30,523 nt of DNA, from positions 1 through 30,523 of the IMG/VR virus record IMGVR_UViG_3300022839_000062; one strand, 5' to 3'. Shown in pieces: positions 15,621-25,777 of the stretch (position 1 is its first letter; each line of letters opens with the position of its first letter). This stretch comes from a virus. The notes beneath the pieces are model-generated. The model worked only from the letters and a program-made list of their open reading frames with translations. It ran no database searches and was not told where the DNA came from. The position numbers and the translations under genes are program-made.

Positions 15621-17987
15621 TTAATAATACTCAGGGACAAGTCCTTCATTTTCCGAAGGATCGTCATCCTCGTCGCTGTGCAGAGAGATGAAATTACCGG
15701 CACGGAAACGCATCAGCGCCTGCGTCGTACTATCCACCATGTCGTCGTTGTCACCGTTAGGGAACGCAGCACACTGCTCGATGACTTCGTCCGCCCAATC
15801 CGCCTCGGGGGCCCAGACCATGCCGGACTCAAAAATCGGTGCGACAGAGTTAGCCCGTGACACCTTGTCTTGGCCCGCGCGTCGCCCGCCGGGGCTATAC
15901 ATAGTAACCGGAATACCCATCCTACGCAGTTCCTGCTGAAGCGTGATTCCCGTCGCCTTGGCCTCGATTAAGACATTATCCGGCTGCCAGTAGTCATACT
16001 GCTCCTTCGCCTTACGCTTTAGGTCAGGGAAGTCCCACCGGCCTTTACGCATGTCAACAAGCAACAGATTAGGCCCAGAGTCCTCCGTGGGGAAGAACAC
16101 CGCCCACGTCGTGATGACAGAGAAATCCGCCGTCTCCTTCTTCGAGTACGCCGTATCATAGGACTGGATAAGGTATTCCATGTGCGGCATGTAGTCTTTA
16201 TCCCAAATGCGCCACCACTCACGCTTCAGGATTGCACCCTCATCAGCCGTGGGCCGTTGTTGGTACATCGCGTTCCATTTCTGCACCGACATAGATGCAC
16301 GGACCGCGCGGAGCTCGTCAAGTTCCCAGAAGCTAGGCCAAAGAGCGCGCTCGTTTTCTTCGCCCTCATCAAAAACGGCAGGGAACTCAATAACCTCCCA
16401 TTGGTCCGCATTCATATTGGACTGAGATTTGAGTAATCGGGCCGTTAAGTCCTTGGTCCCCCACCGTGTATTGTGGCTAACCACACCATTGGCTATGAAG
16501 TTCTCAGTGCGGTCAACCTCAACGTCGAAGACCTCTTCCTCACAGTCATAGCTGATCTCAACTATTTCGTCGGAGGTAATCTGCGGCTTTTTCCAGTGTG
16601 CTTGGGTTTCCGCCGTATCCGACGCATAAATTACAGTTGTTGCAGAGCAAGCCCCTGATCCTTCCCATATCATGGCAGTGGTCGATGCACAGCTTCCCAT
16701 TCCAGTGGGCACGAGTGTTGGAGACAGAAGGCTCCTCGCCACATACATCGCATCGATTTTTGCGCTCTGCCACCATTGCCTCATACTGCTCAATAGTAAT
16801 TCCGTAACGGTGCTTGATCCTGCTGCTCCGGCTTTGTTCCGGCGTTTTTGTGTAGCCTTTCCACTTGCGGTAACAGCTATTACAAAAACCTTTACTAACC
16901 ACCAGTTTAGTGCAGTCTTCCGTTTTGCAGGTCTTTCCTTTCCACTTTCCGTGAAACCCAACCCCACGGTACGGTGCATTGGGGTTTTTCCGGTGGTAGC
17001 TGGCTGTAGCTTGACATGCCGCGCACGTCCCCCGTCGAGTTGTTGCTCTTGACAGGCGCTCGCATCCGTCAACGATACAAGTAAATCCCCCTCCTTCAAG
17101 TGTTTTAATCGTGTCCACGTCTCTTCTCCGTCTTTAACGACTAGGAATGGATGCCTAGCGTTTGCACGGATGATTCTGCCAGATTGTGTTCGTACTGTAT
17201 ATACCGAATCAATACCACTTGACTGCCAGTTGTTTATCTTGGACGTGGCTATGCCACCGTTTTCATAGGTTGCAACAGAGTCCCCCGCCCGCAAGTCTCG
17301 CAGAAACGTCTCCGTACCGTCAGGACGCAAGACCCTAGTGTCGCCAACCATGCACATAACAATAACAATTGCTCCGCCGGGCTGCAATCTTGTTCGCGGG
17401 CCAGAGGTGTACCATTCCCAAGCGTTGTCCAGAGCTAGGGCTGAGGCCGCGTCCTGCTCCGAGTGCGGGTCATCAATGATCAGCATATCCGCACCACGGC
17501 CCGTCATCGCGCCGCCTACACCTACAGCAAAGTACTCCCCACCTTTGTCCGTGTCCCACCTTCCGGCGGCTTTACTGTCAGCCTTCAAGGCAACGTCAGG
17601 GAATACTTCCTTGTATTTATCAAGGTCCATCAAGTTACGCACCTTGCGGCCGAACCTGACAGCGAGCTCGCCGGTGTGTGTTGCCTGAATGATCTTGGTG
17701 TTTGGCTTACGGCCCATGATGTAGGCAGGCAGCAGATACGACGCAAATTCTGATTTGGTGTGTCGAGGAGGCATGTTAACGATCAAGCGCTTCAGGGTGC
17801 CCTTGGCTATTCTGTCAAAGGCGTCAGCCATAATCTTATGGTGGCTGCTGAGTATCGCTTCAGGCCAGACGTATTGAGAAAAACCGATAAAGGTGTCCTG
17901 TGCCCGTTCTTGGCCATCTAACAAGGCTAGGCGGAGTTCTAGTTTTAAGCGTTCGGCTTCGACATCTTGTTGCATACGGATTCCCAT
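15621..17987 (-). CDS. terL: Terminase large subunit interrupted by an intein
   Basis: 788 residues before splicing, about 493 after. The ATPase domain has NMPPRHTKSE (residues 71-80, Walker A-like) and MLIIDDPHSE (168-177, Walker B plus catalytic Glu region). Residues 212-506 are an intein (separate entry); the C-extein resumes at T507 with TRWGTKDLTARLL, the coupling motif that normally follows VIVM directly. The RNase H-like nuclease has D611 (SYDTAYS), E675 (VLIEAKATG) and D749/D752 (NDDMVDSTTQALMRF). The protein packages DNA through the portal using ATP. Start: no good site before 17987; the Met at residue 5 (17975) is an alternative. It follows a long palindrome-rich gap. Confidence 0.95.
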   Translation of the reverse strand: MGIRMQQDVEAERLKLELRLALLDGQERAQDTFIGFSQYVWPEAILSSHHKIMADAFDRIAKGTLKRLIVNMPPRHTKSEFASYLLPAYIMGRKPNTKIIQATHTGELAVRFGRKVRNLMDLDKYKEVFPDVALKADSKAAGRWDTDKGGEYFAVGVGGAMTGRGADMLIIDDPHSEQDAASALALDNAWEWYTSGPRTRLQPGGAIVIVMCMVGDTRVLRPDGTETFLRDLRAGDSVATYENGGIATSKINNWQSSGIDSVYTVRTQSGRIIRANARHPFLVVKDGEETWTRLKHLKEGDLLVSLTDASACQEQQLDGGRARHVKLQPATTGKTPMHRTVGLGFTESGKERPAKRKTALNWWLVKVFVIAVTASGKATQKRRNKAGAAGSSTVTELLLSSMRQWWQSAKIDAMYVARSLLSPTLVPTGMGSCASTTAMIWEGSGACSATTVIYASDTAETQAHWKKPQITSDEIVEISYDCEEEVFDVEVDRTENFIANGVVSHNTRWGTKDLTARLLKSQSNMNADQWEVIEFPAVFDEGEENERALWPSFWELDELRAVRASMSVQKWNAMYQQRPTADEGAILKREWWRIWDKDYMPHMEYLIQSYDTAYSKKETADFSVITTWAVFFPTEDSGPNLLLVDMRKGRWDFPDLKRKAKEQYDYWQPDNVLIEAKATGITLQQELRRMGIPVTMYSPGGRRAGQDKVSRANSVAPIFESGMVWAPEADWADEVIEQCAAFPNGDNDDMVDSTTQALMRFRAGNFISLHSDEDDDPSENEGLVPEYY
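16470..17354 (-). mobile_element. Intein in TerL (295 residues), inserted before TRW motif
   Basis: Block A is CMVGDTRVLRPDG with C212 as residue 1. Block B is IIRANARHPFLVV with H279 (the usual Thr of TxxH is Asn). The first splicing half ends near GDLLVSL (residue 306). Blocks F and G are EEVFDVEVDRTENFI and NGVVSHN, with penultimate H505 and terminal N506; the +1 residue is Thr507. Removing it rejoins VIVM with TRWGTKDL, the conserved terminase motif. Residues about 307-470 match no intein endonuclease: no LAGLIDADG motif is seen. They are the out-of-frame reading of the HNH gene at 16558-17118. The two real splicing parts total about 130 residues, mini-intein size. Confidence 0.92.
16558..17118 (-). 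CDS. Endonuclease VII-type HNH homing endonuclease, nested out of frame in the TerL intein
   Basis: 186 residues. A GTG start at 17118 has GGAG seven bases upstream. Two N-terminal zinc fingers: C14/C19/C32/C35 and C64/C69/C79/C82. The C-terminus is endonuclease VII-like: YGITIEQYEAMVAERKNRCD, CDVC (C123/C126), the D146-H147-x-H149 metal motif in CIDHCHDMGRIRGLLCNNCN (residues 144-163), then STLEKAADYLRR. The frame differs from the surrounding intein. It overlaps about 17 codons of the N-terminal splicing half and about six of the C-terminal half. It should be translated as a separate enzyme from the terL transcript. Role: inferred to spread the intein to intein-free terL genes. Confidence 0.85.
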   Translation of the reverse strand: MDTIKTLEGGGFTCIVDGCERLSRATTRRGTCAACQATASYHRKNPNAPYRGVGFHGKWKGKTCKTEDCTKLVVSKGFCNSCYRKWKGYTKTPEQSRSSRIKHRYGITIEQYEAMVAERKNRCDVCGEEPSVSNTRAHWNGKLCIDHCHDMGRIRGLLCNNCNLCVGYGGNPSTLEKAADYLRRNS

Positions 17988-18050
17988 TTAGTAGAAATTT
18001 GCTAAAAATTTATAGCCCCTTTGATTGTCAGAAACAAGGGGGTGGGTATC

Positions 18051-18078
18051 GGACAATGTTGCACGTGCAACATTGTCC
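18051..18078. repeat. Perfect 28-bp palindrome
   Basis: Half-site GGACAATGTTGCAC is followed without spacer by its exact reverse complement. On the plus strand it is followed by ATTTTTG, but all genes are on the minus strand and no T-tract follows on that side, so it does not fit a terminator for the known genes. It starts 64 bases upstream of terL. A dimeric protein site, a cruciform or a packaging-related signal are all possible. Confidence 0.9.
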
Positions 18079-18161
18079 ATTTTTGTTTTGGGCCAAATTA
18101 ATTGTGTGAAAACTGGCTATAGCCCTCTTGCTGAGCGAGGGGCCGGGGCCTCACCGCCTCA

Positions 18162-18180
18162 AATGAGAATCATTCTCATT
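18162..18180. promoter_or_regulatory. Fur-box-like operator (perfect 19-bp palindrome)
   Basis: AATGAGAATCATTCTCATT is a perfect 9-1-9 palindrome. Its core TGAGAATCATTCTCA agrees with the 7-1-7 Fur consensus TGATAATNATTATCA at all positions except the symmetric fourth base of each half, a substitution seen in many natural Fur boxes. It lies about 175 bases upstream of terL. If functional it would tie late phage transcription to host iron status. No strong promoter was seen adjoining it, so function is unproven. Confidence 0.55.
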
Positions 18181-18209
18181 CAGCCCTCAAAACGGCCAAA
18201 AGGGACCCG

Positions 18210-18241
18210 CTATTTCCGGTAATAACCATTACCGGAAATAG
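18210..18241. repeat. Perfect 14-bp inverted repeat with 4-base loop
   Basis: Arms CTATTTCCGGTAAT and ATTACCGGAAATAG flank AACC. A transcript on either strand would form a 14-bp stem. No T-tract follows closely on the minus strand, so it is not a standard terminator. It may be an operator or an RNA structure protecting or regulating the terL message. Confidence 0.85.
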
Positions 18242-18350
18242 TGAATCGTTTAAAATCAAGCACTTAGCTATTTCCATGCACCTCGAACCCGGCAAAACAC
18301 TACATCTTGTGGTTGCCCCGATTCGGGCACCTCGGGTCATGGCCCACGCA

Positions 18351-18397
18351 TCTGGGCGCCCAGAGCCAAAAACGCGCCGCTCGCACCCCGCGCGGGG
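18351..18397. repeat. Two short GC-rich palindromes
   Basis: TCTGGGCGCCCAGA (18351-18364) and CCCCGCGCGGGG (18386-18397) are both perfect palindromes in the GC-rich half of the same gap. Short GC palindromes arise by chance more easily than the longer ones nearby, so they are listed mainly as part of the cluster. Confidence 0.6.
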
Positions 18398-18470
18398 GCG
18401 GCCGAGGGCCCCTTCCCAGTTTCCACTGTGGCACGTTCTCTTGCAGGCAGTAGGTAGGCAGGGGGTCAGG

Positions 18471-18926
18471 CTAAACGCGCTCACAGGCCTTCTCCGTCGA
18501 TATACGAGCACTCTTTACTATTTCAGCACGCAATTCACTCCAGTCGACTGCATTCAAGGCCCACTGGGCCACTGGAGGCGTGTCTACGCCCCTCTCGTGC
18601 AGCTCCTGAGCCTGCGTGCCGTGGTACAGCAGCAGGCGCGTCTCAGCGGCCTTGGTCGTCCCCTTGGGGTGCCACTGGACTAGAATGTACGTCGGCATCC
18701 CCATCGTCCCGTACTTCAAAGCAAAGGCTATCTGGTGCGGACTCAGCCTCACTTTCTTGCCCGTCTTCACCACCTTCAGCTCCACCATTGAGTAGGTCGG
18801 CGGCAGGGCTATCAGGCAGTCCGGTATCCCGAGGTTCACCCGGTTCTCCAGTCGCACTATCGTCGCGTCCGGCAGATTTGTTTTTACTCGCTTGTGCAGC
18901 GCTGCTTCTGGTCCGAGACTCGGCAT
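18471..18926 (-). CDS. VRR-NUC-like PD-(D/E)XK nuclease
   Basis: 151 residues from the ATG at 18926, chosen because GAGGAG lies seven bases upstream; a longer TTG start at 18941 lacks this. Catalytic motif: E27 in VRLENRVNLGIPD, P35-D36, E49-x-K51 in SMVELKVV, and Q65 in LSPHQIAFA. This is the VRR-NUC/Holliday-resolvase-like nuclease pattern. It probably resolves branched DNA before packaging or processes replication intermediates. The first 95 codons overlap the 3' end of terS in another frame (18643-18926), so the two genes are translationally linked and constrain each other. Confidence 0.85.
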   Translation of the reverse strand: MPSLGPEAALHKRVKTNLPDATIVRLENRVNLGIPDCLIALPPTYSMVELKVVKTGKKVRLSPHQIAFALKYGTMGMPTYILVQWHPKGTTKAAETRLLLYHGTQAQELHERGVDTPPVAQWALNAVDWSELRAEIVKSARISTEKACERV

Positions 18927-19623
18927 CGCGCATCTCCTCAATTATTGTCTTGGCGGGTGGGACATCCTCAAGCTCTTCTATCTGCTCAAGCTCTTCTATC
19001 TGCTCAAGCTCTTCTATCTGCTCAAGCTCTTCTATCTGCTCTGGCTCGATGTCTATGAGGGTCTGCGGCGGGGAGCCGTACAGCGCTTTTATTTCTTCGA
19101 GCTTTCGAGTGACCTCTTCTTTCGACATGCTGTCGATGGTGCCGTGCCTGATCTCTTTGCGCTCGATGTAGATGGTGCCCAGAGCTTGGCCGCGCCGGTA
19201 TTCAGCAGAGACTGCTGCGCCGAAGTTACCTGCCTCGAGAGCCTTGTCACGAATTATTTGCATGTCGCGCATGTGCCGGTCGAAGTTCGTGCCGTATTTC
19301 TCAGCAAGCTGTGCTCGATACTCTTGGATAGCTGCGACGACGTGCGGTTTCTTTTTTGGGTCGGTGAGTTCTGAGGCTATTGAGCTTGCGGATTCCTTTG
19401 GATACCCAGCGCGTATGGCGGCTTCAGTTAAAGTGATCCGGCCGTCGTTTGATATGAACTCTTGAATAAACCTCCATTGTTTGGGGTTGACAACGTGCTT
19501 TTGGTCTTTAAGTGGCGCTACCGGCTCGCTTAACCGTTGCTCAAGCTTGTCTCGGACTGCGGGCCTTAACGGGCTAGTGTTTAAGATGTCTCGGCGTTGC
19601 TTTCCCTCATCGCGCTTGCTCAT
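18643..19623 (-). CDS. terS: Terminase small subunit with acidic repeat and long disordered tail
   Basis: 326 residues from the ATG at 19623, preceded by AGGAGG with five-base spacing; a GTG at 19644 gives seven more residues but lacks such a site. Residues about 45-105 fit the Terminase_2 HTH domain: NPKQWRFIQEFISNDGRITL then TEAAIRAGYPKESASSIASE. Middle helices follow (FDRHMRDMQIIRDKALEAG). Residues about 195-220 are a perfect EQIEEL hexapeptide repeat from four 18-base DNA repeats. The last 95 residues are Glu/Asp/Ser/Gly-rich, disordered, and overlap the nuclease gene. TerS recognises phage DNA and activates TerL. The usual size is 150-200 residues, so the tail is unusual. Confidence 0.85.
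   Translation of the reverse strand: MSKRDEGKQRRDILNTSPLRPAVRDKLEQRLSEPVAPLKDQKHVVNPKQWRFIQEFISNDGRITLTEAAIRAGYPKESASSIASELTDPKKKPHVVAAIQEYRAQLAEKYGTNFDRHMRDMQIIRDKALEAGNFGAAVSAEYRRGQALGTIYIERKEIRHGTIDSMSKEEVTRKLEEIKALYGSPPQTLIDIEPEQIEELEQIEELEQIEELEQIEELEDVPPAKTIIEEMRDAESRTRSSAAQASKNKSAGRDDSATGEPGEPRDTGLPDSPAADLLNGGAEGGEDGQESEAESAPDSLCFEVRDDGDADVHSSPVAPQGDDQGR
18967..19038 (-). repeat. Four perfect tandem 18-bp repeats inside terS
   Basis: Unit CTCAAGCTCTTCTATCTG (plus strand) occurs four times in direct contact with no mismatch, and a degenerate unit follows. In the terS frame it encodes the acidic hexapeptide EQIEEL, likely a coiled-coil extension. Perfect identity implies recent expansion or contraction by slippage. 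Confidence 0.95.
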
Positions 19624-19865
19624 GCTGTCCTCCTGCAGGTCCACACAGGGCCTTCTGACTGCACCACAGAAAAACGTCGGCCTGTGCCATTACGAGACTT
19701 GTAGAACGTCGACAGGGCGCTGTTAATGCGCTTGGCGTCTTCTTTTGAGTGCACAACAAAATAATCGCCGAGGACCATGCCCTTAAACGGGTAGCGGGTC
19801 TGCCTGTGGTTGCCGTTGCAAAACTGCAAAGTGTGCTGGTGTGGAGTAATGCCTGTGAGTGTCAT
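19620..19865 (-). CDS. Small YPF-GD-family phage protein, copy 1
   Basis: 81 residues from the ATG at 19865. A 22nd-codon start is preferred over the longer frame because a good promoter (19893-19921) lies inside the longer reading and GAGG stands close upstream. The core is YPFKGMVLGDYFVV, then a helical Arg/Ser segment, then GRRFSVVQSEGPVWTCRR. It matches the pattern of the gene at 24522-24734 (YPFLDMEVGDSVYF ... LRIWRAE), so two copies of one small fold are present. These proteins are common in phages and probably bind nucleic acid, but the function is unknown. The end overlaps the terS start. Confidence 0.75.
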   Translation of the reverse strand: MTLTGITPHQHTLQFCNGNHRQTRYPFKGMVLGDYFVVHSKEDAKRINSALSTFYKSRNGTGRRFSVVQSEGPVWTCRRTA

Positions 19866-19892
19866 TGTGGCCTCGCAAGTTGGAAAAACGGT

Positions 19893-19921
19893 ATTGTATC
19901 GACAGGTTATCAATCTGTCCA
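19893..19921 (-). promoter_or_regulatory. Sigma-70-type promoter for the packaging genes
   Basis: Minus strand: TGGACA (-35, 19916-19921) and TACAAT (-10, 19893-19898) with exactly 17 bases between; each matches consensus at five of six positions. The spacer carries a dyad GACAG...CTGTC (19901-19905 and 19915-19919), so an operator may overlap it. It would initiate about 20-25 bases upstream of the ATG at 19865 and could drive that gene, terS, the nuclease gene and perhaps terL. Confidence 0.65.
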
Positions 19922-19932
19922 TTTTCAAGCAT

Positions 19933-20172
19933 TTCTATAATACCGTATTCTCACAAAAAATAAGTTTTTTTTCTAAAAAATGAGTCGCGCGCGCACCCCG
20001 TAGATTAGGTAAAACCATTACGTCATTACGCCTAGTTATTATAGACGTAATGCTAGACGTATCGCTACAGACCACGTAGATAGGGCAGCATTACGTCAAT
20101 TACGTCAAACGTACCGTATTTCATTAAAAATAAAATCAACACTTTTTTTTCTCAGAATACGGTATTATAGAA
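19933..20172. repeat. Perfect 19-bp inverted repeat flanking about 200 bases
   Basis: TTCTATAATACCGTATTCT at 19933-19951 recurs exactly in inverse orientation at 20154-20172. Each copy contains the dyad AATAC-C-GTATT and a TATAAT hexamer. Related partial sites are at 19888-19895, 20111-20120, 20379-20385 and 20404-20411. The 202 bases between the copies hold most of the iterons. Confidence 0.9.
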
Positions 20173-20369
20173 GAGACCAACATAGGCAGCTCCGTGGTCC
20201 GTGGTCCATGCCCCCCAAAGCCCGCACCGCGTGGGCTCCAGAGCAATTCCGCCTCCATTTTCCGTGGTCCACGGCCCCTCTTTACTTTCCCGCATTAAAA
20301 ACCTCTCGTTCCTTTATCCACGGGGCCTTCACCGTGATAGACAAAAAAAGATTACGTTAGATTACGTCA
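20017..20369. repeat. ATTACGTCA iteron-like repeats
   Basis: Exact ATTACGTCA copies occur at 20017-20025, 20090-20098, 20099-20107 (contiguous with the last) and 20361-20369. Near copies: ATTACGTTA at 20351-20359, ATTACG at 20025-20030 and the inverse GACGTAAT at 20044-20051. The 9-10 base phasing in two pairs puts sites about one helical turn apart, as expected for cooperative protein binding. Confidence 0.75.
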
Positions 20370-20411
20370 AAAACAAAAAATACCGCAAAAAAGGCCATTT
20401 TTTACGGTATT
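20370..20411 (-). terminator. Probable intrinsic terminator after the 120-residue gene
   Basis: On the minus strand AATACCG and CGGTATT (20405-20411 and 20379-20385) pair; inside them six A/T pairs extend the stem after one mismatch, closing on a GGCC-containing loop. The minus-strand transcript then reads TTTTTTGTTTTTG. It lies about 55 bases after the stop at 20467. The stem is AT-rich, so efficiency is uncertain. Confidence 0.6.
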
Positions 20412-20466
20412 GGGGTGTGTACTGTAATGTACTGTAATGTCCAACGGGCGTAGTTTACAGCGCCTC

Positions 20467-20829
20467 CTAATCTAGCCCCCCCTTATCTAGCGCCTCCTCA
20501 TCCTTTTCAATTTCTCGGAGGTCCTCGATCAAACTATATCTTTGGAATGCAAGGTGCTCGCCTTTATCGAAGACTGTTTGGTCGTGGGACGTGCGCCAGT
20601 AAAGCTCGCCTTGAAACCAGCTTTCTATTTCTGTCAGGGTTTCGAGGGGCACGTTGGCCTGCAGGCGTGCCTCAGGGTACTTGTCGGCGATGATCCTCAC
20701 GGCTTTGATGAACTTGCTGTAAGTCGAGTAGTGCTCAGTGAAGAACGATTCAGGGGCGCCTGCGCCGTAGAAAGAGGCGTCGAAGGCCTTGGGGTCGGTG
20801 ACGATGGTGAGTGAAAAGTAGTTGTGCAT
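20467..20829 (-). CDS. Early phage protein, function unknown (cassette A)
   Basis: 120 residues from the ATG at 20829, which follows AGGAGACAGAC. The open frame extends 25 codons upstream, but that part is duplicated leader DNA shared with the next gene, so it is not counted as coding. Starts MHNYFSLTIVTDPKAFDASF; the middle helix is FIKAVRIIADKYPEARLQ, and the C-terminus is acidic. No known domain. It has its own repeat element and leader hairpin and ends shortly before a terminator, so it forms a one-gene unit. Confidence 0.75.
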   Translation of the reverse strand: MHNYFSLTIVTDPKAFDASFYGAGAPESFFTEHYSTYSKFIKAVRIIADKYPEARLQANVPLETLTEIESWFQGELYWRTSHDQTVFDKGEHLAFQRYSLIEDLREIEKDEEALDKGGLD

Positions 20830-20847
20830 GTCTGTCTCCTGTATCCG

Positions 20848-20921
20848 GTCAGGGCCATTCCCTGACAACAACTGCAGCTTAAAGCATGTCATCAGGGGAG
20901 TCAACTACTTTTTTACTACTT
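20848..20921 (-). promoter_or_regulatory. Cassette element A with leader hairpin
   Basis: AAGTAGT and AAGTAGTTGAC direct repeats lie at 20900-20921 (minus strand), a few bases after the TAG stop of the upstream gene. A leader hairpin GTCAGGG-AATGG-CCCTGAC follows at 20848-20866, then AGGAGACAGACATG. The segment from the hairpin to the ATG is nearly identical to the leader at 21717-21760. Confidence 0.7.
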
Positions 20922-20925
20922 TTTT

Positions 20926-21717
20926 CTACCCTAGATCCTCCCCAACATATTCGAGGCCTTGGTCCACGTTCCCATCTTCAAAGCCCTCGACCTTGACCAC
21001 CTCAGCAAGCCACTTGGCATTCTTCTTCAGGGCGTTGGCTGAGATTGATTGATAAGGCGACGTGTAAGCGTGGCGCAGGTAGCTGCCGTAGCGGTAACCT
21101 TTGATGTGGCTGGTGCCTTCATCACGGTAGCGCGTGGCTGCTCCGATATATGGGTTATGATCGATCAGGACCATATAGACTGCACCGGCAGGCATGCGGT
21201 AGGCGATCAAGGCTCGATTACCAATGCACAGCAAGCCGGGATTTCTGATAGTCGCTAGGACAATTCCGTCCCTCCAAGCTTGGTTGGCCCAGAATTGTAC
21301 TTGATGGTTTGGCTCGAGTTGAGCCTGTTTGGCCTCCCATTGGGCCTGCTGCTCTCTACGGTATTTCTCGATGGCCGCCTTGGCTTCAGCTTGGTACTCA
21401 GTGTAGCCAGTGCCATCCTGCCAGTCTGACCAGACCACGTAGAAGTGGTCCGCACCGTCCCTGTAGTCAGGTCCGTGGAGCGCGCGGAGTTTATCGCTGA
21501 CCTCGATTCGGCCCTGCTGTCGGTACAGGGGCTTGTTTAGATCTTCCCCGAAAGCGAACAGGTGGTATTTATTGCTGTTGTAGTTGCATTTGATTTTGAC
21601 AATTTCGACTTTCTCACCAAGCTCAACGAAAAGCTTCTGTGCCCTCTTCTGGTAAGACTTAGGAGTTGAGTTTGAAACACCGTGACGGTACTCAGCGTTA
21701 GGAATGATGTTTAGCAT
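20926..21717 (-). CDS. Early phage protein, function unknown (cassette B)
   Basis: 263 residues from the ATG at 21717, preceded by AGGAGAAAGAC; as in the neighbouring gene, the 25 further upstream codons are repeated leader. The sequence includes YHLFAFGEDLNKPLYRQQGR, HFYVVWSDWQDGTGYTEYQA, a Gln/Glu/Lys-rich helix (about residues 110-145) and IGNRALIAYRMPAGAVYMVL. It has no motif I recognise, no membrane segment and only two cysteines. It stands in the early region among small genes with repeated leaders, so host interaction is plausible but unproven. Confidence 0.75.
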   Translation of the reverse strand: MLNIIPNAEYRHGVSNSTPKSYQKRAQKLFVELGEKVEIVKIKCNYNSNKYHLFAFGEDLNKPLYRQQGRIEVSDKLRALHGPDYRDGADHFYVVWSDWQDGTGYTEYQAEAKAAIEKYRREQQAQWEAKQAQLEPNHQVQFWANQAWRDGIVLATIRNPGLLCIGNRALIAYRMPAGAVYMVLIDHNPYIGAATRYRDEGTSHIKGYRYGSYLRHAYTSPYQSISANALKKNAKWLAEVVKVEGFEDGNVDQGLEYVGEDLG

Positions 21718-21735
21718 GTCTTTCTCCTGTATCCG

Positions 21736-21807
21736 GTCGGGGCCACTCCTCGACAACAACTGCAGCTTAAGGCATCTAATCGTAGGAAACAAGTCTTTTT
21801 ACTACTT
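21736..21807 (-). promoter_or_regulatory. Cassette element B with leader hairpin
   Basis: A diverged copy of the repeat element (AAGTAGTAAAAAGACTTG) lies at 21790-21807. The hairpin GTCGAGG-AGTGG-CCCCGAC, with one mismatch, is at 21736-21754. The interval TTAAGCTGCAGTTGTTGTC is shared base for base with cassette A, so these two leaders are recent duplicates. Confidence 0.65.
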
Positions 21808-24312: not shown

Positions 24313-24525
24313 TCAGCGAATCTTATGAACTTCTGGGCGTCCAAAGTTGTAGCCTGAGACTCGAGCTTCGTGCGTTATTGCCACAAAAGCGTTAAGCGCT
24401 TTGTCCGGATCGTTGATGACGTCCTTCATTGCCTGCAACAGCCTTAGCTTATCGGCGAGCTGCATCAGCTCAAAATGATTCACGGCTTCCTGAACCATTT
24501 CTTTATCGTGTTCAGTGCTAGTCAT
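24313..24525 (-). CDS. Small early protein, function unknown
   Basis: 70 residues from the ATG at 24525 (GGAG six bases upstream; ATGA overlap with the previous stop). It is helical: MVQEAVNHFELMQLADKLRL and LLQAMKDVINDPDKALNAFV. No motif recognised. Confidence 0.6.
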   Translation of the reverse strand: MTSTEHDKEMVQEAVNHFELMQLADKLRLLQAMKDVINDPDKALNAFVAITHEARVSGYNFGRPEVHKIR

Positions 24526-24734
24526 TCTGCTCTCCAAATTCTTAAACCATTATCTTCACGGCGTGCGACGTACTTCTGGTCCCATCGTCGTCCAGTTGAC
24601 ATGGCCGCGCGGTACGCTCGGCCGTTAACATCCTCACCGTCGAAGTAGACGCTGTCGCCAACCTCCATGTCGAGGAACGGATACTTCCGCGCTCTCGACG
24701 ATTCCGGTAATGGAAAGTCTGTTTCAATTTTCAT
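24522..24734 (-). CDS. Small YPF-GD-family phage protein, copy 2
   Basis: 70 residues. YPFLDMEVGDSVYFDG near residue 18, then NGRAYRAAMSTGRRWDQKYV and GLRIWRAE. This is the same layout as the gene at 19620-19865: a YPF..M..GD strand pair, an Arg/Ser helix, and a closing beta strand with Arg. The first four codons and bases around the ATG match those of the gene at 26418-26741. Function unknown; possible nucleic-acid binding. ATGA overlap on both sides. Confidence 0.75.
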   Translation of the reverse strand: MKIETDFPLPESSRARKYPFLDMEVGDSVYFDGEDVNGRAYRAAMSTGRRWDQKYVARREDNGLRIWRAE

Positions 24735-25755: not shown

Positions 25756-25777
25756 GCGCAACTACTTTAGACTACTC
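25756..25777 (-). promoter_or_regulatory. Cassette element C
   Basis: Minus strand: GAGTAGTCTAAAGTAGTTGC, starting at the TAG stop codon of the upstream gene. A TTGC -35-like end and TAGTAT 16 bases later could be a promoter. The leader continues to AGGAGAAAGACAATG at 25694, without a clear hairpin. Confidence 0.65.

Follow-up and report, generated by a model that had tools for sequence, protein, structure and literature searches.

The window analyzed here, a stretch of 30,523 nucleotides, is the entire IMG/VR virus record IMGVR_UViG_3300022839_000062, and its main genes all lie on the minus strand. The largest intergenic stretch of the window lies upstream of two overlapping genes, viz. ORF82 (19620–19865, minus strand), which encodes a basic protein of 81 aa (12 K/R, 4 D/E), and terS (18643–19623, minus strand), which encodes the small terminase (Terminase_2) and whose start overlaps the ORF82 stop (ATGA). 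An earlier reading, based upon the sequence alone, had described a non-coding gap of 540 bases at this position. The gap is indeed non-coding, but its size required correction, as the most likely start of the flanking ORF is an ATG at 19865, preceded by the Shine-Dalgarno sequence GAGG, and not a TTG at 19928. The ATG is preferred because the similarity among homologues ends upstream of it, which gives the gap a length of about 600 nt (19866–20466). The next largest gap (17988–18470), upstream of terL, contains a perfect 28-nt palindrome GGACAATGTTGCAC/GTGCAACATTGTCC (18051–18078), a hairpin CTATTTCCGGTAAT/ATTACCGGAAATAG (18210–18241) and a Fur-box-like palindrome AATGAGAATCATTCTCATT (18162–18180). 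The large terminase gene itself (15621–17987, minus strand) contains an intein that interrupts it (matches to Intein_splicing and Hint) and is overlapped in another frame by an HNH-like ORF. Among the early genes, a CAACTACTTTTTACTACT-type repeat is present on the plus strand at 25759, 26017, 26405, and 27044 (four copies versus 0.02 expected) and is a candidate for a shared early or middle promoter element, and a 92-nt repeat with 80% identity (20821–20912 and 21709–21800) spans the leader regions of two neighbouring early ORFs.

The closest named phage is DSL-LC04, followed by pelagiphages of the HTVC023P type. DSL-LC04 is a circular genome of 61,547 bp that was assembled from lake water and placed in a proposed family "Dishuiviridae" (PMC10611076), and the window therefore corresponds to about half a genome. 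Many related records were identified in IMG/VR by scanning with TerS, with the DNA polymerase and with a protein encoded nearby, and sampling with an ORF82 profile yielded 34 distinct lineages. All conclusions presented here are drawn from the sequences of metagenomic contigs. A search of genome contigs for terL, carried out with regard to the host, gave no match.

In an alignment of the gap with those of relatives, read in gene sense, a terminator-like hairpin is followed by iterons, GGACCACGG repeats and an outer arm with an A-tract at its end. Next come two iterons together with the middle copy of the arm core, then an inverted pair of iterons, the GC core and a T/A tract. Beyond the partner arm, which is inverted, lies a promoter of the form TRGACA-17-TACAAT, with a further arm-core copy overlapping its -10 box, and this promoter is followed by ORF82 and terS. 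Four of these features had not been noted earlier, viz. the inverted repeat of 28 nt, the sigma70-like promoter, the GC core and the terminator-like hairpin. The repeats that had been noted, viz. four exact and several near copies of the iteron ATTACGTCA, a repeated 10-mer and A/T tracts, were all recovered. The four exact iterons of the window are all found within the gap (0.12 expected; none of 100 shuffles reached four), on the minus strand at 20017–20025 (TGACGTAAT, also seen in the alignment of relatives), 20090–20098, 20099–20107 and 20361–20369; the second and third of these abut and the last lies outside the arms. Two near copies, each with one mismatch, are AGACGTAAT at 20043–20051, in the opposite orientation (plus strand), and TAACGTAAT at 20351–20359 (minus strand). 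The 10-mer TGTACTGTAA occurs twice, at 20418 and 20428, and A/T tracts are also present. Two overlapping GGACCACGG repeats (20192–20207, minus strand) and a further copy (20262–20270) were recognized in the alignment of relatives. Both in the window and in DSL-LC04, repeats of this kind are also found at scattered positions, and HTVC023P has a similar sequence, GGACCACGAACCACGG, upstream of its terS.

Based upon such repeats, the sequence-only reading had proposed the gap as a candidate replication origin. In such an origin an initiator bound to the iterons would open the AT-rich tracts and, as far as the features added here are concerned, the arms and ORF82 would regulate firing. The occurrence of iterons in both orientations together with A/T tracts (139 RYGTAAY sites observed versus 15 expected in the 34 lineages), the concentration of the gap repeats at this single locus in six long or complete genomes and the position of the gap between replication and late genes are all in accordance with this proposal, and the iterons are kept in the relatives, where their absence had been named as evidence against it. 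The iteron-based origins of the F RepE type and lambda ori likewise combine short repeated sites, A/T-rich stretches and an autoregulatory operator of an adjacent gene. However, in contrast to these origins, no initiator gene adjoins the element, as had already been noted; apart from ORF82 and terS, the adjoining ORFs have no Pfam or PHROG match, and the neighbour is terS in every lineage. The proposed check of GC skew was carried out in the six long or complete genomes and the extremes were found at inconsistent places, none of them consistently at the gap, although this is a weak test because the skew is dominated by the coding strand. A combined literature query for an origin, terS and iterons returned no report. 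Hence, what stands of the earlier interpretation is a conserved, single-locus, iteron-bearing cis element, whereas its assignment as a replication origin is rather unlikely.

The repeats, the A/T tracts and the GC core (ACGGGGTGCGCGCGCGA) are enclosed by two 28-nt arms. The outer arm, which is on the left in gene sense, is TTCTATAATACCGTATTCTGAGAAAAAA (20145–20172, minus strand), and it is 93% complementary to the inverted partner arm TTCTATAATACCGTATTCTCACAAAAAA (19933–19960, plus strand), with the complementarity retained by double changes across relatives. In 27 of the 34 lineages, a count that includes a few repeats other than the arm pair, the best inverted repeat with a spacing of 90–320 nt was superior to those from all 60 dinucleotide shuffles; three or four lineages were dropped from later tests because their best repeat was not formed by the arms. 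The sequence of the arms varies widely among lineages (e.g., CTATAATACCGTATTCTGAG, CTATAGAGGTGTAATCTGA and CTATTAACGGATACTTCCCACG) and the two arms match within a genome. When the arms were aligned according to their context, 90.6% of the arm cells were paired. Eleven of 24 arm pairs had changed on both sides, giving 39 double-change cells, which was reached by none of 500 shuffles and approached by no slid register; both these shuffles and the swap test described below take in related lineages. In TerS homologues without a detected ORF82 the arms are mostly absent, with a CTATAGGTGTTTT pair in L040 and an A-tract pair in L088. The comparisons among lineages give good support for a conserved architecture in which two lineage-specific inverted arms with A-tracts enclose a GC core and an array of iterons.

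Compensatory changes in the arms would also be expected if they closed the helix of a structured RNA such as a packaging RNA, and the RNA fold of the gene-sense strand (z = -5.2) agrees with this. However, copies of the arm core that are in direct orientation at the promoter, and which a stem does not need, co-vary with the arms, and no G-U pairs are seen in the variable core columns 76–86; because of these two observations duplex DNA is favoured over RNA. In addition, no Rfam match and no evident promoter upstream of the arm were found, and we regard a structured RNA as very improbable.

The promoter of the ORF82-terS operon (19893–19921, minus strand) is sigma70-like, with the sequence TGGACA-17-TACAAT in the window and TRGACA-17-TACAAT in close relatives. 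Its -10 box is overlapped by a copy of the arm core, TACAATACCGTTTT (19885–19898, minus strand), and the middle copy of this core is TACCGTATT (20112–20120, plus strand). In a swap test with 24 lineages, copies of a lineage's arm core were found at its own ORF82 promoter (p = 1.5e-4), predominantly in the left-arm orientation, and several lineages carry two or three tandem core copies at the promoter, e.g., GGGTACTT or GGATACT operators. The "operator-like sites" suspected earlier are therefore well supported, as the arm core is repeated at the ORF82 promoter and, as described below, varies jointly with ORF82 residues. That the promoter is sigma70-like is understandable, because HTVC027P is reported to depend on the host RNA polymerase (PMC12753301). 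For the same reason a promoter of the T7/SP6 type, suggested by the arm end CTATAGAA, was dropped from consideration; PF00940 had no match in five related records, and also none in control genomes.

The promoter, with overlapping operator copies in many lineages, and the terminator-like hairpin on the early side could also indicate a purely transcriptional switch with no role in replication or packaging, where ORF82 bound at the arms and promoter would loop the DNA and time the late operon, and the iterons would serve a second regulator. The hairpin with its T tract (20379–20411, minus strand) reads in the direction of the early genes and, although it is at chance level when judged by a scan of the single window alone, its pairing is kept in relatives while the stem sequence varies. 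However, the preserved GC core, the iteron array and the long arms exceed the needs of a promoter, and we consider this explanation unlikely.

The GC core (19985–20001, minus strand) is present in a 16-nt form with no more than two mismatches in 18 of the 34 lineages, it is single-copy in the whole genomes that were checked, and it is preserved while ORF82 and TerS diverge to about 40–50% identity. Its position beside terS, and the fact that two contigs from different samples (L094 and L104) both start 8 nt upstream of it, could be taken to mean that it is a cos site where fixed virion ends are cut. The lambda cosB/cosN region similarly has repeated sites and bent DNA beside terS (PMC4856287). 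However, the genomes studied here map as circles with no fixed ends at the site, and the other contigs span the core or break at scattered points. A lambda-type cos site was rejected on these grounds, as the full-length relatives close into circles, their gap lies far away from the ends of the contigs, and only the L094 and L104 starts coincide; a cos site of any kind is scarcely probable. Of the circular maps, that of DSL-LC04 is circular as such, whereas three full-length contigs close at 127, 63, and 127 nt (G004, G005, and G006, respectively), lengths that equal the k-mer overlaps of an assembler. The varying distance of the gap from the contig ends in full-length relatives is consistent with headful-like maps.

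The protein that acts on the arms is suggested by the relationship between arm bases and ORF82 residues. ORF82 adjoins terS directly downstream of the element in 34 of 34 lineages. Within the group of the window, L053 and L057 have TACAGTA in place of TACCGTA at both arms, at the middle site (where C is replaced by A jointly with the arms) and at the promoter. The ORF82 changes S49G and K56R are found in L053, L057 and the hybrid L067, with S49/K56 present in all others; this coupling is based upon eight distinct ORF82 sequences. The K56R change involves different codons in two clades (AGG from AAG, and AGA from AAA) and the surrounding synonymous bases differ too, which means that this coupling originated, or was maintained, in two different backgrounds. 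The hybrid L067 retains C in the left arm and middle site despite S49G and K56R, and arm changes without a change in ORF82 are also seen in L085/L045 and L175. A partial Mantel correlation of arms with ORF82, given TerS, was weak (0.154, p = 0.10). TerS itself is disfavoured as the arm binder, since between L053 and L056 it differs in only 4 of 305 aa, none of these in the first 130, yet all four sites and ORF82 differ.

ORF82 is predicted to fold as beta-alpha-beta-beta, with residues 49 and 56 both located on helix 41–56 (pLDDT 79). A fold search of the PDB with the predicted structure revealed no significant match, either to a DNA-binding protein or to any other solved structure, and the prediction resembles only small phage proteins without known function. 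With respect to DUF7303 (PF23978), for which no mention was found in the literature, ORF82 falls below the curated cut-off and five of 15 homologues match with E values of 0.035 or weaker (14 versus 27 bits where shown). A small ORF elsewhere in the window (24522–24734, minus strand) shows a weak DUF7303 match (E 0.035), as do some ORF82 homologues. The covariation supports the inference that the arms are the target of ORF82, as a so far uncharacterised DNA-binding protein with an autoregulatory function. It probably binds the arm core, where by occupying the copies at the arms and promoter it would repress its own ORF82-terS operon and bring the arms together in a looped or wrapped complex, with a second protein of slower-changing specificity, perhaps TerS, bound to the GACGTAAT iterons.

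From the comparisons, the gap emerges as a genuine and conserved control element, non-coding and acting in cis, that is situated where the early module meets the late one in a little-known family of aquatic phages. With slightly less than even confidence, we suggest that this element is a packaging-start (pac) and late-gene control site with an SPP1-like layout. The complex formed there would mark the terminase start on the concatemer, the GC core being the candidate cut region, and the packaging start would be coupled to late-operon control through the element. The pac region of SPP1 (pacL-pacC-pacR) contains direct repeats, overlaps the terS promoter and has binding regions that flank the cut site pacC (PMC6316719, PMC4856287, PMC4737164). 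The element resembles it in its direct repeats and in overlapping the terS promoter. Bent DNA, a central cut site between binding regions and an operon that represses itself are further features of SPP1 that are predicted for the element, and the circularly permuted headful genomes of SPP1 have a putative counterpart in the circular maps described above. However, inverted lineage-specific arms have not been reported in SPP1, where TerS itself binds pac, whereas the arms here seem to follow the separate 81-aa ORF82. We do not place the element in the SPP1 pac class, membership of which would require binding by TerS and cleavage at the site. Upstream of terS in DSL-LC04 (OR003939.1) the gap has the same architecture and the same GC core, a sigma70-like promoter with an arm-core copy, and an ORF82 homologue before terS, but its arm sequence (CCTATAGGATACACTCTCT...) is unrelated to that of the window. 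The ORF82 homologue is present there as two tandem diverged copies (L089:19963–20474). The available part of PMC10611076 contains no description of this region that we could find, and for pelagiphages of the HTVC023P type no description of a packaging signal or origin was found in the literature.

It is conceivable, albeit improbable, that ORF82 founds a class of sequence-specific phage DNA-binding proteins in which helix residues 49 and 56 read the site, and that packaging specificity is set by two proteins, ORF82 and TerS, in a system where the paired sites and their reader diversify rapidly and jointly. Satellites or related phages exploiting the packaging signal might be the source of such a pressure to diversify. 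These results suggest what a family of small phage proteins without any characterised relative may do, and they provide a concrete residue-to-base prediction together with a record of how a DNA-binding protein and at least four sites in one locus would have coevolved. If the element is a packaging signal, it would show how packaging specificity changes within an abundant group of aquatic phages related to the HTVC023P-type pelagiphages.
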